Virus record (IMG/VR): IMGVR_UViG_3300009168_000006
Coordinates: 1 to 64,000 of that record
Source: a virus
Direction: 5' to 3' (one strand)
DNA: 64,000 bases
Each line of letters begins with the position of its first letter. Within the stretch, counting starts at the first letter, position 1. Below the pieces are notes generated by a model, which was not told the DNA's origin, ran no database searches, and saw nothing but the letters and a program-made list of their open reading frames with translations. This document shows, one piece after another, positions 1,577-52,733 of this stretch. The translations under genes and the position numbers were made by a program.

Positions 1577-3736
1577 GTGGCCAAGCCGAGTCGGGAGCCG
1601 CCGGACGAGAAGTACCTCCTCGACCTGAGGGAGGAGACCCGGGACGGGTACCAGCAGCAGGACGAGCAGATCGACCGGCTGCGCGAACTGCGGACGATGC
1701 AGCGCCCGGTGCCCGTCCCCCCGGAGTTGCGCCTCGTCCCGATTGAGATCAGAGACCCCACCGTCGCGGACGAGTGCCAGCGGGTGGTGGCCACCCTGGT
1801 CAACCAGCCCCCGCACCTGACGGTCACCCCCGGCAAGGAGGGGGTGGAATCCCTGCGCCGCAACGCCACCGACCGGGAGCACTGGACGGAGGAGTTGCTG
1901 CGGGTGGCCGGGGCGCGCGAGCCGGGGCCGGACACCCTGATGCGCTGCGCCGACGCGGTGGTCAGCGACGGGGGCGGGGTCACCAAGCTGACCTTCGCCC
2001 GCGACCTGTGGGACGAACGCTACGCCCTGCGCCTCTCCGGGTACGACGCCTACGACACCGCCGACGAGACCCCGTTCGAGGACCGAGAGGGGGAGACGGA
2101 CGAGGAGCGCGAGGACCGGGAGGCCCGCGCCCGGGCGCGCAAGGAGAACCGGCCCGAGGGGCGCAAGCCCCGCACCAGCAAGGACGGCTACGAGGGGGAC
2201 GATTACACCTCGGCGGCCGAGAGCGCCAAGAAGGACGCCGGGCCGCCCTTCCGCTGGGTCGCCCCCGACATCCGCACCGTCTACCCCGTCTTCCACGGCA
2301 ACGACATCGGGGAGGTGCTGGAGGTCACGTCGCGGCCGATCAACGCCACCTTCCGCCGCTACGGCCTCTCCCTGGACGGGGAGGGGCGGATCGTCTCGGC
2401 CGAGTACGGGGAGCGCAACCCCCAGGTCGAGGCCACCCAGGCGGGGTCGGGGAGCCTGGTCTGGCAGGACTACCCCTCCGGGAGCGTCGAGTTCCTGGAG
2501 CACTGGGACGACGAGTGGGTCACCTACTACGTGTGCGGGGAGCACAAGACCCACGGCTACAACGGCAAGATCGTCCAGCAGTGGAAGCACGGCTACGGCC
2601 GCCACCCGTACTTCTTCGCCCCCGGGCTGTGGATGGGCTGGTGGCGCAACCGCAAGATCGGCTGGTCGGTCTCGGAGACCAAACGCTGGCTGGTCGAGTA
2701 CCGCTCCTACCTGTGGACGATCCACGCCCAGCAGGCCGCGCGCGACATGCTCCCGCCCGTAGACGTGGAGGTGCCCGATGGGGCGGCGCCCATCCGCGGG
2801 GACGACGGCCGCCCCCGCACGGTGGAGCAGTACCAGATCGGGAAGATGTACTACGGGGCGCCCGGGACGAAGCGCACCCCGTGGCAGTTCCCCCAGGTGG
2901 CCGCCTCGCTGCGCGAGCAGATCACGCTGACCACCGAGGCCATCGACAAGCTGTCCATCCCCCGCATCGAGAGCAACCTGGGCGGGATCGAGGCGTCCGG
3001 CTTCGCCATCAACCAGGTGCTGGCCGAGGCGCGCATCCGCTACGACCCCATCGGCCAGAGCATCGAGCACATGCTGGACGAGGTGACCCGCTTCCTCTGG
3101 CACCTGGTGCGGACCAAGGTGCGGGAGAAGGTCTGGGTCTACGCCAGCGGCAAGCAGTCCGGGTGGAAGGGGCTCGGCCCCGACGACCTGAAGGCGGACG
3201 TCCGGCTCCAGTGGAAGCTGGACCCGACCCTGCCCAGCGCCGCCCTGATCGAGAGCCGGTACCACGTCGAGCAGGTCAAGGCCGGGTTCGAGAGCATGGA
3301 CCAGGCGATTGAGGCGCAGGGGCGCAACCCGGACGAGGTGCGCTACGGGATGGCCCTGGACGAGATGCGCCAGGCGGACTGGTACAAGAAGTACATGCAG
3401 GCGTACGTCCTGGCCGAGGTGGGCCAGGGCGACCTGATGGACCAGGCCGACGAGGCGCAGCAGGCCGAGGCCCTCGCCGCGCAGGGTGTCCCCCAGTTGC
3501 CGCCCCCGCAGGGGAACGGCGCGGCCGCGGGCGGGATCGGCACGGCCCCCGGCGGGATGGGCACCCCCCAGGTGCCCGACATGCAGAAGTTCCTCATGGC
3601 CCAGAACGGGGTGGGCGCGGAGGGCGTGCAGTTGGCCGGGGCCACCGAGGTGCCCGCCCAACCCGGTGGCGTCCCCGGCGCCCCGGTGGTGCCCACCCAG
3701 TCCGCGGCGGCTGGACTGGTCCAGCCCTTGAGGTGA
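1577..3736 (+). CDS. Portal protein
   Basis: A 719-aa protein following the terminase, the canonical portal position. It has the large size of podovirus portals, a charged linker (EGETDEEREDREARARARK, about residues 170-195), a long middle with many aromatic residues, and a C-terminal Pro/Gly/Gln-rich tail. Segments such as GWSVSETKRWLVEYRSYLWT and RIESNLGGIEASGFAINQ resemble the stem and clip helices of large portals. The GTG start at 1577 is preceded by GGAGGCGAGGG. Expected role: dodecameric DNA gate at one capsid vertex. The call rests on position, size and general appearance rather than a single signature. Confidence 0.75.
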   Translation: MAKPSREPPDEKYLLDLREETRDGYQQQDEQIDRLRELRTMQRPVPVPPELRLVPIEIRDPTVADECQRVVATLVNQPPHLTVTPGKEGVESLRRNATDREHWTEELLRVAGAREPGPDTLMRCADAVVSDGGGVTKLTFARDLWDERYALRLSGYDAYDTADETPFEDREGETDEEREDREARARARKENRPEGRKPRTSKDGYEGDDYTSAAESAKKDAGPPFRWVAPDIRTVYPVFHGNDIGEVLEVTSRPINATFRRYGLSLDGEGRIVSAEYGERNPQVEATQAGSGSLVWQDYPSGSVEFLEHWDDEWVTYYVCGEHKTHGYNGKIVQQWKHGYGRHPYFFAPGLWMGWWRNRKIGWSVSETKRWLVEYRSYLWTIHAQQAARDMLPPVDVEVPDGAAPIRGDDGRPRTVEQYQIGKMYYGAPGTKRTPWQFPQVAASLREQITLTTEAIDKLSIPRIESNLGGIEASGFAINQVLAEARIRYDPIGQSIEHMLDEVTRFLWHLVRTKVREKVWVYASGKQSGWKGLGPDDLKADVRLQWKLDPTLPSAALIESRYHVEQVKAGFESMDQAIEAQGRNPDEVRYGMALDEMRQADWYKKYMQAYVLAEVGQGDLMDQADEAQQAEALAAQGVPQLPPPQGNGAAAGGIGTAPGGMGTPQVPDMQKFLMAQNGVGAEGVQLAGATEVPAQPGGVPGAPVVPTQSAAAGLVQPLR

Positions 3737-4604: not shown

Positions 4605-7600
4605 ATGCCGGTCATCAACATCCCGATCAAAGAGTGGGGCGCCGACATGGCCGAGCAGGCCAAGCGGAAGGCGCAGGCGGCCATGCAGGAGGTGCAGGAC
4701 ACCGGGGGCGCCGCCATCGAGGAGGCCCAGCGCAAGGCGCAGGCGGCCCGCGACGAGTGGCTGAAGCAGCAGATCGACCAGGCCATGGCCCCCATCCGGG
4801 AGGCCGGGCACAGCGCCGCCGAGGGGCTGGGCGCCCTGGCGCAGAACGCGGGCGAGAACCTCCAGCAGAACGTCGAGGCCGTGCAGCAGGCCCCCGCCGC
4901 CCAGGCCATCGGGGAGAAGGCGTCGGGGTTGGGCACCTTCGCGCAGGGGGTGCGCCAGGACTTGCGGAAAGGCGCGGACGCGGCCGTCGCCGCCGACACG
5001 GCGCTGGACACCGCCCTCTCCGAGCGAGACGCCGCCGACCGGGCCGCCCCCCCGACCATCCCGGAGGAGGTCTCCGCGCCCCCCAGTTTTCAGGTGCCCG
5101 GGGCGCTCCCGGCGATGACGGCGGACACCCTGCCCAACCCGGTCGAGTTCCCCACCAACGTGGCGAAGAACTACCTGGGGAGCCTGGGCCAGAGCGCCGA
5201 AGACCTGACCAGCCCCGACGAGTGGGGCAAGACGGCGGCGGCCGCCAAGGAGATCGCCCCCGAGGTCGTGAGCCCCGTCCAGACCGCGGCCCGCCTCGCC
5301 TCCGACCAGACGGCCCGCGACACCTTCATGGAGAAAGACCTCCCCGCGGCGGGCCAGGTGCTCAAGACGGTGGGGGACGTCGGCAACGTGGTGCCCCTGC
5401 CGGGCGAGCAACTGGAGAACCTCGCCGCCTCCGCGACCATGGAGGCGACGAAGGACACCGGGATGCCCGAGCCGGTGCGGGCGGGCCTCTCGATCCTCGC
5501 CGGAACGGGCCTCCCGACCGCGGTGGCTAAGCGCGCCTTCCGCGCCCCGGGGTCGCTGTCTAGCCGCCTAGACGAGGCGGGCCGGGCGGCGATGGGCGAC
5601 GGCAGGCTGTCCGTCAGCGACGGCACGCCGCCCGTTGGGGACGTCCCCGAACCGGAGCGGTTCCCGCCGTTCCACACCGACCCGGGGATGCGCCGCGCGC
5701 AGCCGGGGCCGGGGCCGGACAGCGACCCCGACCGCGCTCGTATCCCGTCCTTCGACCGGGAGGCGTTCCCGGGCCGGGCCGGCGGCCCGGCGCTGCCCCC
5801 CTCGGACGCCCCGGTGGAGGAGGGGTCGCTGCCGTTCACGCCCCCGCGCCGGGGCCTCAACCCGCCCGGCGGCTTCCCCGACCCCCACGCCCGGGGCGAG
5901 CGCGGACTTGGCGAGTTGGACATGCGCCGGGTGGACGAGCCGTACTGGGACAACGCCCTGGAGAACACCTTCACCCCGGAGGAGTTGGACGAGATCAACC
6001 TTGCTATCCAGAACGGGGAGATCGGGGACACCGACGAGCCGACCAACCGTCAGGTGCTGGGGTGGGTGCAGGAGAACTTCAACCGGCGCCGCGGGCCGGG
6101 GGAGACCCCCGATGCGGGGCGCCCGATTGAGCAGTGGCGGGGCGATCAGCCCGGGGCGACCGACGACTTCATCCCCGACTCCGCGCGGGTGGACCCCACG
6201 GAGGGGATGACCCAAGCGGAGAAGGACGAATACTGGTACGGCGGGTCGGACTTCCCGGGGCAGGAGCAGTCGCCCCTGATGCAGGCGTTCGAGGCGACCG
6301 GGCGGGAGCGCCGCCGGATCGCCCGCGAGCAGGGCCTGGAGGTGGACTGGCTGCCTAACGACGAACTGGGTCGCCTGGGCGAGGACGACTTCCAGCGCAT
6401 GCTGCGCGACCGGACGCACCGGCCATTCGTGGACGACCGCTTTACCCCGCGCGGGGAGCCGACCGAGCCGCCCTCCGGGATGAGCCAGGTGCCGGGGGAG
6501 ACCGGGCGCCTCACGGGGATGGAGCGGCTCCCCCGGGGGCCGCGTCCGGAGCCGGGGCCGAGCCTGCGCGACCAACGGCTCGCTGACAACCTCGACGCCT
6601 ACGAGGGGTTGTCACCCGCCGAGCAGCAGGTGATCGAGGACGCCTGGGCGTCCGGCGAACTGACCCGTGAGGCGACGGTCGGGGAGGCATTCGACCTAAT
6701 CGACCGGAGGTTTGCCGACCCGCTGGCGGACATGACCGTCAACGACGCCCTGGACGCCGCGGGCGACCTGATTGACGAGGGGGTCTCGCGCCCCAACGCC
6801 TACCGCGCGGCCGCCAGCAACCTGGGCACCAACCTCAACGAGTACGACGACGCCGACCTCGCCGGGATGCAGTGGGGCGAGATCGAGGACACCCTGAACC
6901 GGAAGCTGGGGCGGGGGAAGTACGGACCGGAGGGGGCCGACGATCTCTTCGGCAACCAAAGGCCGATCAGCGACACCGACCCGTGGGTGACGGGGGAGGG
7001 GGCGGAGACCATCGACCGCCTCCCTTCGGGGGGCACGCCACCCGGGGAGGAGAACGTCAACCTCCCGCCGTCCAGCGCCCAAGAGATGGCGGAAGGGCGC
7101 CGCTGGTGGCTCCGTCGCTTCGGGCTGGACGACATGGCGGACAACCTCTCCGACGAGGAACTCGCGGGGATGGACCCGGACCGGTGGTCGGAAATCTACG
7201 AGGACGGGATTCGCCGCACCCGACCCCCGGAGCCGGTGGAGCCGGGGCACCGCATCCCGGACGACGGTGAGGGGCCTGGGCCGCTCCCGGGCGCTCCCGA
7301 CCTGGAGATTGACGACGTCAGCCGCCTCCTGGATCAGCAGGCCCGCGACCGGGGAGAACCCCCACCGACCCTCCCCTACACCAAGTTCGAGGGGCCACGC
7401 CTGCCCCGTCCGGAGGGGCCGCTGCCCCCGGGGCGTGGCCTCGACGACACGAACTCGTCCCGGCTCGGCCCCGACGAACCCTACGACCGGGAGGGGATGC
7501 AGAACATCCTCGGCCGCACCGGGTCGCTGGCCGACCAGATCGCGGGCCGCACGGCGGGCGCCATCCAGGGTGGGGTCGCCGCCGACCGGATGGACGAGGA

Positions 7601-37852: not shown

Positions 37853-37868
37853 GTCTATCCGACTAGTC
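37853..37868 (-). promoter_or_regulatory. Dispersed palindromic site, copy 12 (imperfect)
   Basis: GTCTATCCGACTAGTC; contains the TAG stop of the upstream (103-aa) gene and precedes the next start. Confidence 0.5.
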
Positions 37869-38174
37869 GGGATCGTTTCCCTCGATCCACTCGGCGCAGG
37901 CCCGTTGGACGGCCCGCACCAGGTCGCGGTCGTGCTTCCAGTTGCGCCGGAATACGCCCAACCGCACGGCCTTGAGGAAGGCCCCGGCCGTGCCCCAGTA
38001 CCAACTCCGTTGGCGGTCGGTCAGCGCCTCGGTGGTCTGGGGCCGGTCGTCCTCCATCGCCTCGGCCAGCTTGCGGAGCAGGCGCTCCTCCCGCCCCTCT
38101 GGGGGGGACGGGACCGGCGGGGGCTTGCGCCGCTTCCGGCGCACCCCCGCGCGGATGTCTTCGGGATCACTCAC
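37863..38174 (-). CDS. Basic hypothetical protein (103 aa)
   Basis: GTG at 38174 preceded by AAAGGAGTACGCC, the module's standard site, so the longer upstream reading into the repeat array is rejected. It has a basic N-terminus (GVRRKRRKPPP), then helical WYWGTAGAFLKAVRLGVFRR and DRDLVRAVQRACAEWIEG. Possibly nucleic-acid binding. It is the first gene downstream (leftward) of the 3-kb repeat array. Confidence 0.65.
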   Translation of the reverse strand: MSDPEDIRAGVRRKRRKPPPVPSPPEGREERLLRKLAEAMEDDRPQTTEALTDRQRSWYWGTAGAFLKAVRLGVFRRNWKHDRDLVRAVQRACAEWIEGNDPD

Positions 38175-38220
38175 GGCGTACTCCTTTCTCTTCCACCGGA
38201 TGGTCTGGCTTGGGAAGGGT

Positions 38221-41160
38221 GGGTAAGGGGTGGCATGCCACGGGTAGTCGGCGCCGGGCTGGAGAGGAGCGACGGGGGAAGGGACGGGTAGTCGGGTATG
38301 CGCTGGGGCGTCCCGGTGTTGGGCGGCCTCGTCGGGGCGTGCTGCGGTGGGCTGTCGGGGGAAGCGCGGAGAAGTCGGGCCGGGGTGGCAAGCGAGGGCC
38401 GGGGTAGTCGGTGGGGGAACGGGTAGGGTGGTCTGGTCCGGGCTTGTCGGGCGGGTATGTGGAGAGGTGCGCTGCACCGGATTGTCGGGGGTGCGCCGCG
38501 CTGGTGCGCGTGGGGTAGGACTGAGAAGTCGGCTCTGTGGCGGGACGGCTAGGGTTGGGATGAGAAGTCGGCTCGGTGTGGGGTGCGAGGGCGCGCCCGG
38601 TGAGGGGATGGCTCGGGAGGTCGGCGTGACGACGTCGAGGGCTGGCCGGGGACGGGCTGACTAGTCGGGTAGACGAGGTCTGCGCTGGTTAGGACTGGGA
38701 AGTCGGTGAGTGCGGTGGTGGCCAGCAAAGGCGCGTCTAGGCGAGTCGGTGGAGACGAGACCTGGCTGGGCGAGGTCTGGAAAGTCGGGCAGCGGCGACC
38801 TGGGTGGACGCGGCGAGGGTGGTCGCTTCGGTCTGCACTGGGTTGTCGTGGGCGGACTTGTCGCGGTGACCTGGGCTGGTCTGGATCGGTGAGCGGGGGG
38901 CGAGGGCTGTCGAGTCGGGGAGGGGGTGACAAGGTCGGGTGAGCAGCGACGAGGGATGGGGAGTCGGACGCGACCTGGGCGGACGAGCGTGGGGGAGGGT
39001 TGGCAAGTCGGGTAGACACGGGCAGGGCGGGGCCGGAGTGACAAGTCGGTGCGGTCTGCTCGGGGGTGCGAAGGCTTGGGCTGCCCAGCAGAGTCGGGGC
39101 GGGCTTGGTACGGGTGGTGCGCCCAGGCGAGGGCTGTCGGGGCGAGGGTGGGCAGCGCGGCGATGGCCGGGTAAGTCGTGTCGGAGATGGCTCGGTGTTG
39201 GCATGGCGTGGGGCGGGAAGTCGGATGGGGTGGCGTGGCGTTCGTCGGTCGGGGTGGGCGAGAGAAGTCGGGCAGGGACGTGGCGTGGCGCGGTGGCGAG
39301 GAGTGGCAAGTCGGTAGGGGTTGGGTCGGTTTGGTGAGGGGATGAGGCGTCGGCGTTGGGAAGGAGCGGTGCGGGATGGGATTGGGGCGCCCATGTCGGT
39401 TCGGAGTGGCCTGTGATGGGATGCGGTTGGCGAGACGAGGGGCGTCGGGGTGGGCTAGACGGGACCGGGATGCGGGCTGAGGAGTCGGGCCGGATAGGGT
39501 CGGCTTGGGGTCGGCGCGAAGTGAGAAGTCGGAGTCGCGATGACACGGCGCGGACCGGAAGGGGCTGAGAAGTCGGACTCGGATTGAGCCGACTGGGATT
39601 GGTCAGCCTCGTCGGGGGGCGGGTGTTGGCATGGGTCGCCTGGACTAGGCTCGTCGGCGCGGCTTGTGGTGGCGAGGGATGTCACGACCGAGACAAGGCG
39701 TGCCCCTGGCGAGGCAAGTCGGGTCTGGGTCGGGCCGCTCAGGCTAGGGATGGGTTGTCGGTGACGGCTGGGTTCGGGCCGGATCGAGCGTGGGTTGGGT
39801 AGTCGTCGTGGCGAGGGCAGGGCTGGTGAGGCTTAGTTAGTCGCTCGGCGTTGGCTTGCTCCGGGATGGCGTGGGACGGGCAGTCGGGGAGGCCAGGGGT
39901 GGCCTGCGGTACGGCGAGGGATGGCAAGGCTTGTCGGGAGGACACGGAATGGGGTGTCGGTGCTCTGGGTAGTCTCGTCGTGGTGACGAGGTTAGGGTTG
40001 CGCTGACAGGACGAGGCACGTCGGCACGGCGTGGGATGGCTGGACGATGGGACGGGTAGTCGGCTGGCTTGGACAGGCGAGCCGATGGCAAGGCCGGGAA
40101 AGGCGCGAGAAGTCGGGCAGCGGTGGCTGGCGACGGCGTGCGTCGGTTCGTGAAGGGGGGTCGGTACGGCTCGGGCAGAGGGCGGCTTGGGTAGGCATGT
40201 CGGTACGTCGCGGCGCGGGGCGCTCTGCGGGAGGTCGAGTGCTGACCTGGTGAGACAAGTCGGGCGTGATGGGTAGCTTTGGGTCGCCTCGGGTTAGGTA
40301 GTCGGGGAGCGCAGGGCCGGGCTGGGTCGGGCTGGGATCGGGGCGACGAGGTTAGTCGGCTCGCGTGGGCTTGGGTTGGGTGGACCTGACGTGAGTAGTC
40401 GGCTCGGGGGGGGCGGGGTGGGCGAGGGAAGAGTCGTCGGCATGGCTTGTCATGGCCAGACGGGACAAGGTAAGCGGACGTCGGGGTAGGCCCGGGCCGT
40501 GCGGTCTAGGTCAGAGCGGGCGGGACTTGTCGGCGGGGCCGGGACTGGCTTGCAGCCTGGCACGGTGGGGGTTGTCGGGCCGGGCAGCAACGGGGAGGTC
40601 TGCCTCGGTGAGGGGTGACCTGTCGAGCGGGCTTGAGGTGGCAGGGGACGGCTGGTGAAGTCGGACGAGCGATGGATGGGGTGGGGTTGACCAGGATCGC
40701 GTAGTCGTGGCGACTGGGTAGGGGAAGGGATGGTGCGGATGGAGAAGTCGGGGCGGGCGGGCATGGCACGGCCGGTCACGATGGGCGGGTCAGGGTTGTC
40801 GGCATGACCTGAGGCGCCGTGGGCGGGGCCAGACATGGCACGTCGGCAGGGGAGGGGAGCGCAGCCCGGGGCCGGGGTGACAGGTCGGGACGGGGCAGAG
40901 ATGCCTTGGTTCGGACGAGACCTGGCAAGTCGGGAAGGCGGGGCAGGGATCGGCGGGGGTAGAAAAGTCGGGGCGGGTAGGGCGGGAGTGCGCGGGGCGA
41001 GACGAGTGCTGACAAGTCGGGTTGACGAGGCATGCGGATGACCGGGGTCGGGCCGGTTTGTCGGATGGGGGTGACCCGGAGAGTTGAGCGGTGACCTGGG
41101 AAGTCGTCGTGGCGGGACGGGGCTGGCGGATGGCGAGGGTAGACATGTCGGGTACCGGGA
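38221..41160. repeat. Gene-free 3-kb array of short GTCGG-core repeats spaced about 40 bp
   Basis: No gene is supported between 38175 and 41217. The stretch holds dozens of copies of a core GTCGG, usually preceded by AA, TT or TA, often as TGACAAGTCGG, TGAGAAGTCGG or TGGCAAGTCGGG. Successive cores are mostly 38-39, 42-45 or 48-51 bp apart (for example 40660, 40704, 40747, 40798, 40842, 40884, 40929, 40967, 41016, 41060, 41103, 41147). The roughly 30 bp between cores differ from unit to unit. The top strand is strikingly G-rich and C-poor. Cores fall in all reading frames, so the pattern is not coding. It sits inside the leftward operon, so it would be transcribed as C-rich RNA with CCGACTT boxes. 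Candidates are a guide-type RNA array, a protein-binding (partition, origin or packaging) array, or a long structural RNA. Confidence 0.8.
38659..38674 (+). promoter_or_regulatory. Palindromic site variant inside the array
   Basis: GACTAGTCGGGTAGAC; its centre is also an array core, showing overlap between the two motif families. Confidence 0.45.
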
Positions 41161-41174
41161 GACTGCGCCGGACT

Positions 41175-41190
41175 GTCTCGCTGGGTAGAC
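41175..41190. promoter_or_regulatory. Palindromic site variant at the array border
   Basis: GTCTCGCTGGGTAGAC, between the last array unit and the stop of the 90-aa gene. A second looser copy (GTCTCGCCCGGGTAG) starts at 41203. Confidence 0.45.
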
Positions 41191-41217
41191 AGCCCGGCCT
41201 TTGTCTCGCCCGGGTAG

Positions 41218-41520: not shown

Positions 41521-42387
41521 TTAACGGCCCCGGCGCCCGTTCGCCGCCCCAGCGGCGGCGGCCTGGGCGACGGCGGCCTCCAGGTCCACCGCCTCGGCCT
41601 CGGTGGCCGGGGCGGCGTACGCTGGCTGGAGCGTGGAGAGGGGGACGGCCTCGGCGTCCTCCCACTCGATCACCTCGAAGCGCCCTGCGTCCTGCGAGCG
41701 CAGCGCCCCGAAGCCGAGGTTCTCCAGGAGCGACCAGATGGACGGCCACTCCTTGAGGATGACGCTGTCCTGCACCGTGGCCACCAGGAACTGGATGCGC
41801 GGCTGCTCCACGTACTGGTAGTAGGTCAGCGTCGAGCGCGGCCCCTGCGGCCCGGTGACGTGGCCGACGAACAGGTCGAGGTCGGTCGGCTCCTTGGCCG
41901 GGGCCAACTCGCCGTCTACCCCGGGGACGTTCAGGTAGATGCGCTCGGGGCCGACGAACACCCGCTCGGCCAGCCAGGACTTCGGCCCCTTCTTGGTCTG
42001 CCCCCAGCGGTCGCCCGCGTAGAGGATGTTGGTCGCCTCCCGCAGCCCCGCCTTGATCTGCCGGGACTCGATGAACAGCCCCGTGTTGTCCCGCTTGAAG
42101 CCGACGCTGCTCTGGCTGGTGGCCAGCTTCTCGGACGCCAGCTTCATCAGGTCGTAGGCGCTCATCGTCTTGGCCTGCTCGGCCAACTCCGGGTCCAGTT
42201 CCAGGATGGTGCGCCGCACCACGGCGGCCAACTCCTGCTTCTGGTCGATGCCCGTCCCCTTCCTGATCCACGCCTCGATGACGTCGGGGCGCAGGGGGAC
42301 GCCCCCGTAGATGCGGCTGGTGAACTGCACCGTCACCCGGCGGTACTTGTAGACGGCGGACAGGTGGTTCGCGAACACGGATGCCAT
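41521..42387 (-). CDS. Possible RAMP-fold protein next to the repeat array (288 aa)
   Basis: ATG 42387 after AAGGGAGTAGGGCT. Not assigned to a family with certainty. What can be seen: an opening strand YRRVTVQFTSRIYGGVP (15-31) like the first strand of RAMP domains; RQIKAGLREATNIL (109-122) like the helix after strand one in Cas7-type proteins; RSTLTYYQYVEQPRIQFLV (184-202) as a central strand pair; and LGFGALRSQDAGRFEVIEW (224-242), resembling the C-terminal glycine-rich loop of RAMPs. The last 45 residues are Ala-rich. If the fold is right, it would bind RNA, and its position beside the array would be meaningful. No other Cas-like gene is seen. Confidence 0.45.
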   Translation of the reverse strand: MASVFANHLSAVYKYRRVTVQFTSRIYGGVPLRPDVIEAWIRKGTGIDQKQELAAVVRRTILELDPELAEQAKTMSAYDLMKLASEKLATSQSSVGFKRDNTGLFIESRQIKAGLREATNILYAGDRWGQTKKGPKSWLAERVFVGPERIYLNVPGVDGELAPAKEPTDLDLFVGHVTGPQGPRSTLTYYQYVEQPRIQFLVATVQDSVILKEWPSIWSLLENLGFGALRSQDAGRFEVIEWEDAEAVPLSTLQPAYAAPATEAEAVDLEAAVAQAAAAGAANGRRGR

Positions 42388-42399
42388 AGCCCTACTCCC

Positions 42400-43053
42400 T
42401 TACTTCCCGGCGGGGGCGCCGGACTGGTTCGACGGGTTGTTCTGGTTGCCGTTCGGGTACAGGATGCGACGGAGCGCCTCGTCGGCCCCCGACATGATCC
42501 CCTCCATGCGGGCGTTGACCGCGTCGGTGGCGCTCTCGTACGCCTCCTCCACCTGGAGCGCGGTGTACCGCTCCTCCACGGTCTGCCCCTCGTCCATCCC
42601 GGTGGCCAGCATGCGGAACCACCGGGCGTGGCCCAGGTCGCGCTTCGCGCGGGTCTCCCGCTCCTGCGCCGCCAGGAGCAACTCCTCGGCGGTCATCGCC
42701 CCCAACCGGACGTAGCCCACCTGGGGGTTGACGTGCTCCCGCCGGTCGAGCCACCGCTGGAGCGCCTCGCGCTTGGTCTCCTCGGACTCGTCCGCCACCT
42801 CGGTGAACCGCTTCACCCGGCGGGTCTCCAGCATCACCGCCCGCACGATCTCGGCGGTCGTGTTGAAGACCTGCTCGTACAGGAAGCGGTCGAGGAGTTC
42901 CGGCGTCTCCTGCAACCAGGCCACCGCCCCCTCCGCGATCCGCGGGGTCGCGCCCCTGTCGCTCGGGTCGATGCGGTCCCTGATCCACTCCCGGACCTGC
43001 GTGGTTGCCGACCGGGTGCGCCCATCGCGACCCGGCTCGGCCTCGTCGGCCAT
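42400..43053 (-). CDS. Helical hypothetical protein (217 aa)
   Basis: ATG 43053 after AAAGGAGTACGC, 12 bp upstream of the RAMP-like gene. Almost all helical: TTQVREWIRDRIDP, PELLDRFLYEQVFNTTAEIV, EALQRWLDRREHVNPQVGYV, ending in an Asn/Gly tail. It is co-transcribed with the RAMP-like gene and could be its partner; function unknown. Confidence 0.65.
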   Translation of the reverse strand: MADEAEPGRDGRTRSATTQVREWIRDRIDPSDRGATPRIAEGAVAWLQETPELLDRFLYEQVFNTTAEIVRAVMLETRRVKRFTEVADESEETKREALQRWLDRREHVNPQVGYVRLGAMTAEELLLAAQERETRAKRDLGHARWFRMLATGMDEGQTVEERYTALQVEEAYESATDAVNARMEGIMSGADEALRRILYPNGNQNNPSNQSGAPAGK

Positions 43054-44855: not shown

Positions 44856-45716
44856 CTACGCTTTCCCTCCGTTGCTCTCCGACAGCACCTTGGCAAAGAA
44901 GTCGTCCACGTCCCCGCCCACCTTGCCCGTGGAGAGCAGGGACTCGATGCGGTCGATGACGGTGCGGGCCGAGGCGAGGCGCGAGCGCAGGAACTGCGCG
45001 GTCGCCCACGGGTCGTGCGCCGGATCGGGGAGCGAGGTGATCCGGGGGAGCACGGCCGCCGCGTCCCGGATGAAGCGGTCGAGCATCGCCTCCATCTGCG
45101 CGCGGGCCTGCCACAGGTCCAGCTTCTGCTCCACCCGGGTGGTGTCTACCCCGCTAGGCACGTCCTCCGCAGCGGGGGGCCGGGCCAGCGCCTCCTCCTG
45201 GCGCCTGACCTCCTGGCGCACCTCCGGGTCGAGGCGCAGGGCGTCGAGGGCCGCCACCCGCTCGGCCAGGGGCGCGGTCTGGATGCGCTGGGCGAGCGGC
45301 TCGGAGCCGGTGTGCTGGATGGGGGGACGCCCCATCTCCACCCGCAGGCTGGTGACCGTCCACCGCCCCCGCTCGTTGGTCGGGTGCGGCTGCGCCACCA
45401 GGTCCAGCAGGCGCGCCCGCTCCTCCGCGATGCCCTCGTTGGCGATCTCCCGGTAGACCGACCAGGACACGCCTACCACACGTGAGGTAGGCGGCACCCG
45501 GCTGGAGGTGAACCGCCGCTGCTCCAACTGGGTGAGGGTCAGACCGGAGGCGTCGGCCATCCGCTCCAGCTTGTCCTGGCTCCCGTTGTTCACGCCGTCC
45601 AGGGCGTACGGCACCTGGTCGAGGGCGATGTCACCCATCTCGAACCGGGTCAGCTTCTCCTGCTGGGCGAGGTCGGCCAGTCTCGCCAGCGCCTGGGCGA
45701 AGGTCATCCTGGGCAT
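44856..45716 (-). CDS. DUF6192/RacO-like protein (286 aa)
   Basis: ATG 45716 after GAAGGAGTGACCG. The N-terminal half resembles the DUF6192 type known from actinobacterial elements: MTFAQALARLADLAQQEKLT, GLTLTQLEQRRFTSSRVPP, VVGVSWSVYREIANEG, LVAQPHPTNERGRWTV. The second half has coiled-coil helices (EVRQEVRRQEEALARPP). In such proteins the first half is HTH-containing, so DNA binding is likely. The family assignment is from memory of the pattern. Confidence 0.55.
   Translation of the reverse strand: MPRMTFAQALARLADLAQQEKLTRFEMGDIALDQVPYALDGVNNGSQDKLERMADASGLTLTQLEQRRFTSSRVPPTSRVVGVSWSVYREIANEGIAEERARLLDLVAQPHPTNERGRWTVTSLRVEMGRPPIQHTGSEPLAQRIQTAPLAERVAALDALRLDPEVRQEVRRQEEALARPPAAEDVPSGVDTTRVEQKLDLWQARAQMEAMLDRFIRDAAAVLPRITSLPDPAHDPWATAQFLRSRLASARTVIDRIESLLSTGKVGGDVDDFFAKVLSESNGGKA
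45144..45159 (-). promoter_or_regulatory. Dispersed palindromic site (intragenic)
   Basis: GTCTACCCCGCTAGGC, inside the DUF6192-like gene (read SGVDT on the coding strand). Confidence 0.5.
45471..45492 (-). repeat. Intragenic inverted repeat GCCTACC ... GGTAGGC
   Basis: GCCTACC, 8-nt centre ACACGTGA, GGTAGGC, inside the DUF6192-like gene. It resembles the hairpin at 60111 more than the 16-bp site family. Confidence 0.4.
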
Positions 45717-51473: not shown

Positions 51474-52733
51474 CTACCGGACGTTGACGTAGCGGTTCAG
51501 CAGGCCGCCGACCTTCTGCTCGAACCCGACCCGGACGTCGGCGTAGACCATCTCCCGGGCATAGGCCGTCCCGGCCTGCACCAAGTCCCAAATGGACGTG
51601 GGGTCGCCGGACGAGCCGATGTCGGCGGCGCGCTCGGCCAGGAGGGGGATGACCTTGGCCTCGGCCTGTCCGAAGCCCTGCTCCCGGAGGAACTTCTCGG
51701 CCCCCTCCAGGTCTTCGGCCACGGTGGTCTGCTTGGCCTTGGCGATGTGCTGGGTGATGCCGGAGACCGAGGCGTTGGAGTAGGCGGCCAGCGCGGGGAC
51801 GGCGCCCTCCAGGAACTTGCGGGGGGCCTGCCGGTTGTGGCGGATGGACAACTCCCGCATCCCGATGGCGTCCCAGATCATCCGGTTCTGGCACACCTTG
51901 TTCAGGTAGAAGGAGAGCACCTTGAACCGGGCGTCCCCGACCTCCGAGTTGGTGACGATGAAGCCCCGGAAGTAGGTCTCCCCCTCGATGTCGATGGGGT
52001 GGGTCTCGTCCACCAGGAAGACCCAGATGTCCCGGTCGGAGGCGTACAGGGTGGTGTTGTGCTTGGTGACCTCGGTCATGGCGTCGTTCATGCCCTGCCC
52101 GGCGATCTTGCCCGGCACCACCCAGCGCCCCTGCGCCTGCTCGTTGATGAGCATGATCGTGCGGACGATGTCGGCGTCCCAGATGCGCCCGTAGTCGGGA
52201 CCGGTGACGGCGCGCAGGACGGCGGGTTCGTCGCCCACGGCCGGGGCGGCCAGCAGCTTGACCCGGCTGTCCCCGTCCACCCGCTGGCGGTATTCCAGGC
52301 TGGCGTTCAGCGCCACCTTGGCGATGGGGGCGGGCATGTCCCGCAGCCAGCGGATGTCGGGGCCGCCGATGACGCTGTTGTACTGGGCGAAGGACCAGTT
52401 GGTGAAGATGGCCGGGCTGTCGCCGTAGCTGACGGTGTAGAGGTTCCCGGCCAGCGGGCCGCTCTCGATGTACTTGGCGTCCAGGTTCCCCTGCACCGGG
52501 ACGTTGGGGAACTCGTCGCTGCGGTCCCGGCGGGCCTCGGTCACGGCCAGCAGGGCCTCCAGGCTGGTGTACCGCTCGTCGTCGGGGCGGCTGGCCCACT
52601 GGTGCGAGGCGAGGGAGAGGTTGCGCCCGCCCTGGCGGGTGACGGGCGGCTTGGCGTAGCCGATGATCTGCTGCGCGGACAGGGTGCCCCCGGCGGGGAT
52701 GGGGATGATCTCGGCGCCGTTGCGGTTGGTCAT
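51474..52733 (-). CDS. DUF932-like protein (419 aa)
   Basis: ATG 52733; AAGGAGTAC upstream. The pattern matches DUF932/plasmid-phage proteins: ASDRDIWVFLVDETHPIDIE, YFRGFIVTNSEVGDARFKVL, SFYLNKVCQNRMIWDAIG, RHNRQAPRKFLEGA. These are common beside replication genes; the molecular role is not established. Confidence 0.7.
   Translation of the reverse strand: MTNRNGAEIIPIPAGGTLSAQQIIGYAKPPVTRQGGRNLSLASHQWASRPDDERYTSLEALLAVTEARRDRSDEFPNVPVQGNLDAKYIESGPLAGNLYTVSYGDSPAIFTNWSFAQYNSVIGGPDIRWLRDMPAPIAKVALNASLEYRQRVDGDSRVKLLAAPAVGDEPAVLRAVTGPDYGRIWDADIVRTIMLINEQAQGRWVVPGKIAGQGMNDAMTEVTKHNTTLYASDRDIWVFLVDETHPIDIEGETYFRGFIVTNSEVGDARFKVLSFYLNKVCQNRMIWDAIGMRELSIRHNRQAPRKFLEGAVPALAAYSNASVSGITQHIAKAKQTTVAEDLEGAEKFLREQGFGQAEAKVIPLLAERAADIGSSGDPTSIWDLVQAGTAYAREMVYADVRVGFEQKVGGLLNRYVNVR

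Follow-up and report, generated by a model that had tools for sequence, protein, structure and literature searches.

A block of short repeats was found within the window (the whole stretch of viral DNA analysed, 64,000 nucleotides), with genes on the minus strand on both sides and its G-rich strand as the plus strand (Table 1). An HMM of the repeat grammar placed the block at 38202-41155 with a score of 690, marking 68 GTCs and a G at the first position of 91% of the words. Within these limits no ORF showed the codon signature typical of the adjoining phage genes, which bore out an earlier note's description of a gene-free block. The same note had pointed to a repeated GTCGG core and a strong excess of G on one strand, and both were recovered, with 71 copies of GTCGG, 91 of GTCG, and a plus strand composed of 50% G and 20% C. 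Tandem Repeats Finder reported nothing in the block, and neither known RNA families nor tRNAs were found in the window; eleven related loci contained two tRNAs in all and no hammerhead ribozyme.

Table 1. Features at the repeat locus, in window coordinates.
Feature	Position	Strand	Description or basis
Putative guide array	38202..41155	+ (G-rich strand shown)	~68 GTC-delimited units of GNNNN words; 5-nt periodicity, segmentation, HMM
Last GTC and hairpin after array	41146..41207	+	Possible plus-strand transcript terminator, weak
ORF, 103 aa, from GTG at 38174	37863..38174	-	Past the array in operon direction; AAAGGAG before start
Small ORF, 90 aa	41218..41490	-	Between RAMP gene and array; ORF and coding signature
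Predicted Vipr-like RAMP protein, family A, 288 aa	41521..42387	-	Family profile, PDB matches, SUSP1 Vipr alignment
Family B protein, 217 aa, candidate accessory gene (vap)	42400..43053	-	Upstream of RAMP gene in 51 of 79 loci

Ten neighbouring proteins were compared with Pfam and PHROGs and none was Nop- or Tas-like, in agreement with the earlier note, which had seen no Nop-domain protein. Neither of the two ORFs flanking the block matched a Pfam or PHROGs family, and the family B protein contained no known domain. Two operon neighbours on the minus strand did match known families, one at 44856-45716 with a weak match to DUF6192 (E 8e-5, under the curated cut-off) and one at 51474-52733 with a match to DUF932 and phrog_1362 (E 2e-28).

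The repeats follow a five-base ruler. Autocorrelation of the block peaked at a lag of 5 (z = 10.4 against Markov shuffles with the same dinucleotides), with further peaks at lags 10, 15 and 20 and then at 38/39, 43/44 and 49. The period near 40 bp reported earlier was thus visible above shuffled sequence, but as a by-product of the 5-nt register. A G was observed at positions -5, -10, -15 and -20 relative to GTCG in 80-89% of the window copies, and when the block was cut leftwards from each GTC into fives the plus strand read as (GNNNN)n-GTC(G), usually with 6-10 five-base words per unit and, in this block, most often 7-10. Each unit holds a whole number of pentamers plus GTC or GTCG, so that unit length seems irregular and spacings fall mostly at 5n+3 or 5n+4. 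Spacings between GTCG copies were 3 or 4 modulo 5 in 40 of the 57 of at least 28 nt in the window, and in 1624 of 2223 spacings of 28-60 nt when all arrays were pooled. Unit lengths do vary, as had been noted, but by this rule.

Entropy at the five word positions in the window was 0.56, 1.65, 1.79, 1.99 and 1.96 bits, i.e. one fixed letter, two biased and two free. Across the arrays compared, positions 4 and 5 were likewise the most variable (1.9-2.0 bits) and position 1 ranged from 0.1 to 0.9. The word consensus on the G strand is GG-S-NN, with GG nearly strict in the arrays of two loci (L010 and L127). The last word ahead of GTC is usually G-R-S-W-W, its two free letters being A/T-rich, and this accounts for TGRNAAGTCGG, the best-conserved form given in the earlier note. 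Other readings of the block were considered on the same observations. The 5-nt periodicity and the lack of a coding-type ORF ruled out a protein-coding sequence, and a G-quadruplex array was rejected because only the first G of the word is strict in the window. CRISPR-type repeats, with constant sequence and constant length between spacers, were without support, GTC(G) being the sole constant part.

Written as an exact gapped pattern, the grammar matched at least 120 stretches in a viral sequence collection, and in well over half of these the HMM detected a clear array. An all-versus-all comparison of the proteins flanking the arrays yielded two families directly beside them, family A, which includes the product of 41521-42387 in the window, and family B, which includes that of 42400-43053. 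A search of viral contigs with the window's family A protein as a single-sequence query returned no match. The family A alignment alone retrieved 80 viral loci; an array was observed within 3 kb of the family A gene in 73 of the 79 of these protein-fetched loci examined, and in 51 the family B gene lay upstream of A within one operon. Overall, family A was found in 119 loci, 109 of which had an array within 3 kb. The same locus was thus recovered in relatives, and a conserved protein-coding gene in place of the array was not observed in them. One such relative is Microcystis phage Mae-JY09 (PP395641), in which the family A protein was 43% identical and an array of the same grammar lay on the opposite strand just beyond its gene.

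A stricter pattern was also run on bacteria and archaea (84,980 species, one genome each). Most of the 99 matches were short repeats or other sequence, and array and protein were observed together in one locus, on a contig of an Acidimicrobiaceae MAG (L285; array at 1789-2941 on the plus strand, Vipr-like protein at 2907-3554 on the minus strand). In a 153-kb phage record (G005, comprising loci L341-L347, L364 and also L059), several GTC-punctuated arrays lay apart from one another, and the largest of them had 74 GTC marks. The search pattern also caught a different element at L004:2194-2463, a 9-bp GTCGGCTNG repeat in about 30 tandem copies.

Family A had no convincing relative in Pfam or PHROGs. 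A family A profile searched against all PDB chains gave 13 matches at E < 10, of which nine were CRISPR RAMPs, namely Csm4 (five sequences), Cas7, Cas5 and Cmr6 (two). These matches were singly weak (best E 0.016 in one profile search and 0.06 in another), and we assign family A to the RAMPs because the matches concentrate on them; the alignments shown pass through the C-terminal glycine-rich loop. The Vipr protein of Escherichia phage SUSP1 (PDB 36pp, "SUSP1 Vipr protein") provided a second line of evidence. When the profile of family A, built from 81 sequences, was aligned with that of the SUSP1-Vipr family (17 sequences), the probability was 79.8% and the E-value 1.5e-5 over 176 columns, a result that rests on the larger alignment set and a single control, family B, which scored 3.2%; comparisons based on smaller alignments scored low. 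Judged by these profiles, the product of the window gene is RAMP-like and probably homologous to Vipr. The glycine-rich loop of family A is a likeness to the class 1 CRISPR RAMPs (Csm4, Cas5, Cas7, Cmr6), as is their assembly on a guide RNA, given the role proposed below. The differences are the absence of CRISPR repeats and of a Cas operon, the weak sequence similarity, and a register of 5 nt in place of 6 nt.

VIPR (Viral Interference Programmable Repeat) was described in a recent preprint (PMC13142463, doi 10.64898/2026.04.26.720920). According to its main text, VIPR combines a RAMP protein made by the phage with an accessory gene and with guide RNAs built from tandem pentanucleotides, in which GGY is constant and NN variable, and these guides bind double-stranded DNA as NN-x-NN-x, skipping one target base that is usually at the wobble position (PMC13142463). 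The main text also mentions seven types, with "a related consensus" and with array plans that vary and can be staggered and overlapping, and gives the vrRNAs as G-rich with 9-16 repeats and a 3' tail, the tail being described for the SUSP1 clade, type II (PMC13142463). The locus studied here resembles this system in having a phage-encoded, Vipr-like RAMP protein and a small candidate accessory gene beside a pentanucleotide array whose NN letters vary. At the level of the array family, it also shares with VIPR the 1-nt-skip matches in genes of other phages, with the wobble base skipped, and guides that in some cases are directed against other VIPR systems. It differs in its relaxed GG-S-NN word as compared to GGYNN in SUSP1, in the GTC(G) that alone separates the units where type II has a conserved 3' tail (no tail is visible here), in its shorter units (usually 6-10 words against 9-16 as published) and in their number, up to about 68.

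The variable parts change rapidly, a point that the earlier note had proposed to test. Loci with vipr genes 96% identical had one of nine units in common, and loci with vipr genes 90-92% identical had none of 11-19 in common, an almost complete turnover of guides between phages with vipr genes 90-96% identical.

If these units are guides, their NN letters, spaced by one free base, should be found in other phages. We searched both DNA strands of 4.3 Mb of viral DNA, with arrays masked, using 662 strict units and 40 shuffles of word order. With a 1-nt skip, nine units had at least eight consecutive perfect words (2.05 +/- 1.18 in shuffles, maximum 5) and four had at least nine (0.08 in shuffles). 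Perfect matches over a full unit of 8-10 words numbered four with the 1-nt skip and zero with skips of 0, 2 and 3, for which no excess past tandem-repeat artefacts was observed. A looser decoding score of at least 16 was reached 30 times against 9.5 +/- 3.2. The skipped base was the position of highest GC (wobble) in all four full-unit matches, compared to 26 of 82 shuffled matches of at least eight words. In composition, the NN letters diverged least from codon positions 1-2 when both strands were read, but a correlation test did not separate the frames.

Two of the four full-unit matches fell in the vipr genes of rival phages, one from a unit of L090 (LAERVFVDE) and one from a unit of L096 (KVAEGWLK); vipr loci are abundant in the searched collection, which makes such matches likelier, but the shuffles were run on the same collection. 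The L096 unit fits the KVAEGWLK motif in at least 12 loci that differ at wobble bases. The vipr gene of L096 itself departs from this guide at the last word alone, and that of L090 departs from its own guide in several words. A unit of L174 matched VRGPHGLGK; this Walker-A-like, terminase-like ATPase motif occurs in large ORFs resembling terminases. A unit of L066 agreed at 20 of 20 bases with a 421-aa ORF from another phage. No excess of self-targeting was observed on the window's own genome or on the own DNA of other loci. In L168 (plus strand, unit ending near 5629; likewise L046), a 12-word guide agreed with its own locus at 20 of 24 bases (GAGCAGCACTACGCCGCCTTACGTACCAAAGTGATG), as though directed against the form that a gene carried by this phage takes in a rival.

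The units of the window were also decoded. Local decoding gave nothing above chance, the best match spanning two units with no clean guide, and four exact scans against the viral collection gave 0, 1, 0 and 2 matches, all three of them off the wobble frame and thus at the level of chance. Near-matches to the window's own genome were no more frequent than in shuffles. Because its own units yielded no convincing target, we infer the function of the window array from its array family, and on this basis the block is very probably the guide-RNA array of a VIPR system. The earlier note, which had compared the block to guide-RNA arrays, was in this sense right in kind.

In the proposed mechanism, Vipr (41521-42387) would coat the array RNA with one subunit per five nucleotides, holding the first letters of each G-G/x-S-N-N word and leaving the last two (NN) to face the target. 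A unit delimited by GTC marks would be one guide, or the core of one. Such a guide would read double-stranded DNA as NN-x-NN-x, so that a word of 5 nt in the RNA would cover 3 nt of DNA and in most cases skip the codon wobble position. Targets would be conserved genes of rival phages, including their vipr, which would be silenced or blocked, and the guides of the window may act in the same way.

The strand of the working RNA bears on this mechanism. The G-rich strand is the probable guide, by analogy, since it is there that the words match published guides, even though the array is mostly antisense to its genes, which is a difference from SUSP1. An unlikely alternative is a VIPR-type array whose working RNA is the C-rich strand, transcribed with the operon, with the protein holding C and not G. 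In its favour, 128 of 139 arrays were antisense to the RAMP gene, and the stretch upstream of each array on the G strand belongs to the coding part of the next gene and showed no promoter; decoding covers both DNA strands and so does not distinguish between them. At the window array we detected neither a promoter nor a terminator or structured tail, the terminator-like site at 41180-41198 being matched in count by shuffles (fold z = -1.3), and hairpins or terminators were not enriched after arrays in general. Against the C-rich strand, the vrRNAs in the preprint's main text are G-rich GGY/NN (PMC13142463), the guides of the SUSP1 locus itself read GGTNN on the RNA strand, and the words observed here have their GG on the G strand.

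The remaining alternatives depart further from a VIPR array. The strict 5-nt register, the strand asymmetry and the single conserved adjoining protein would also suit a binding scaffold for a filament-forming protein, such as a partition, origin or packaging site with no guide role, as the earlier note had suggested. However, fixed sites should be conserved, yet the units turn over between close relatives, and a scaffold leaves unexplained the matches in other phages' genes under the 1-nt-skip rule alone and in wobble phase; we regard it as improbable. TIGR-Tas systems are compact phage guide arrays, and the alternation of short constant with variable parts in this phage DNA had led the earlier note to compare the block with them. 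They have a Nop-domain Tas protein and an edge/spacer/loop repeat plan, neither of which was found in the window (ten neighbours scanned), and with five-base words and a RAMP protein in their place a TIGR array is hardly conceivable. Equally far-fetched is a compositional artefact of a functionless G-rich spacer, since, though half of the block is G, the lag-5 peak lies far above same-dinucleotide shuffles and 185 arrays with this grammar were found next to a single protein family.

Taken as a VIPR array, the block extends an RNA-guided mechanism only months old to a large and mostly metagenomic set of phages, and the noncontiguous 1-nt-skip code is supported, by sequence alone, in a branch with another word consensus and array plan. 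With VIPR systems, phages appear to shut down the genes of rival phages, and the matches above suggest that they aim guides at one another's vipr genes. The roughly 68 candidate guides in this one phage would then be a record of past rivals that can be decoded without knowing the host.

The array may also represent an undescribed VIPR type, with long, tail-less, GTC-punctuated arrays of short guides antisense to the operon, in which GTC and the A/T-rich last word would serve as a processing mark and a check on the end of the target. We hold this only tentatively and think it somewhat doubtful, and a cutting role for GTC is guesswork; bearing on this reading, it is the last word alone that spares the vipr gene of L096. 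GTC-punctuated arrays may instead belong to one of the published types, given the related consensuses and staggered arrays in the preprint's main text. Relatives of the SUSP1 Vipr protein were observed in L036, L042, L047, L076, L079, L080, L100, L103, L106 and L108, and several of these loci had arrays of the GGTNN/GGCNN type. In L036 and L080 a recurring stretch, for example TTTCTCTGGCGAGAAATTTTTAT, interrupted the arrays; it may be the guide tail.
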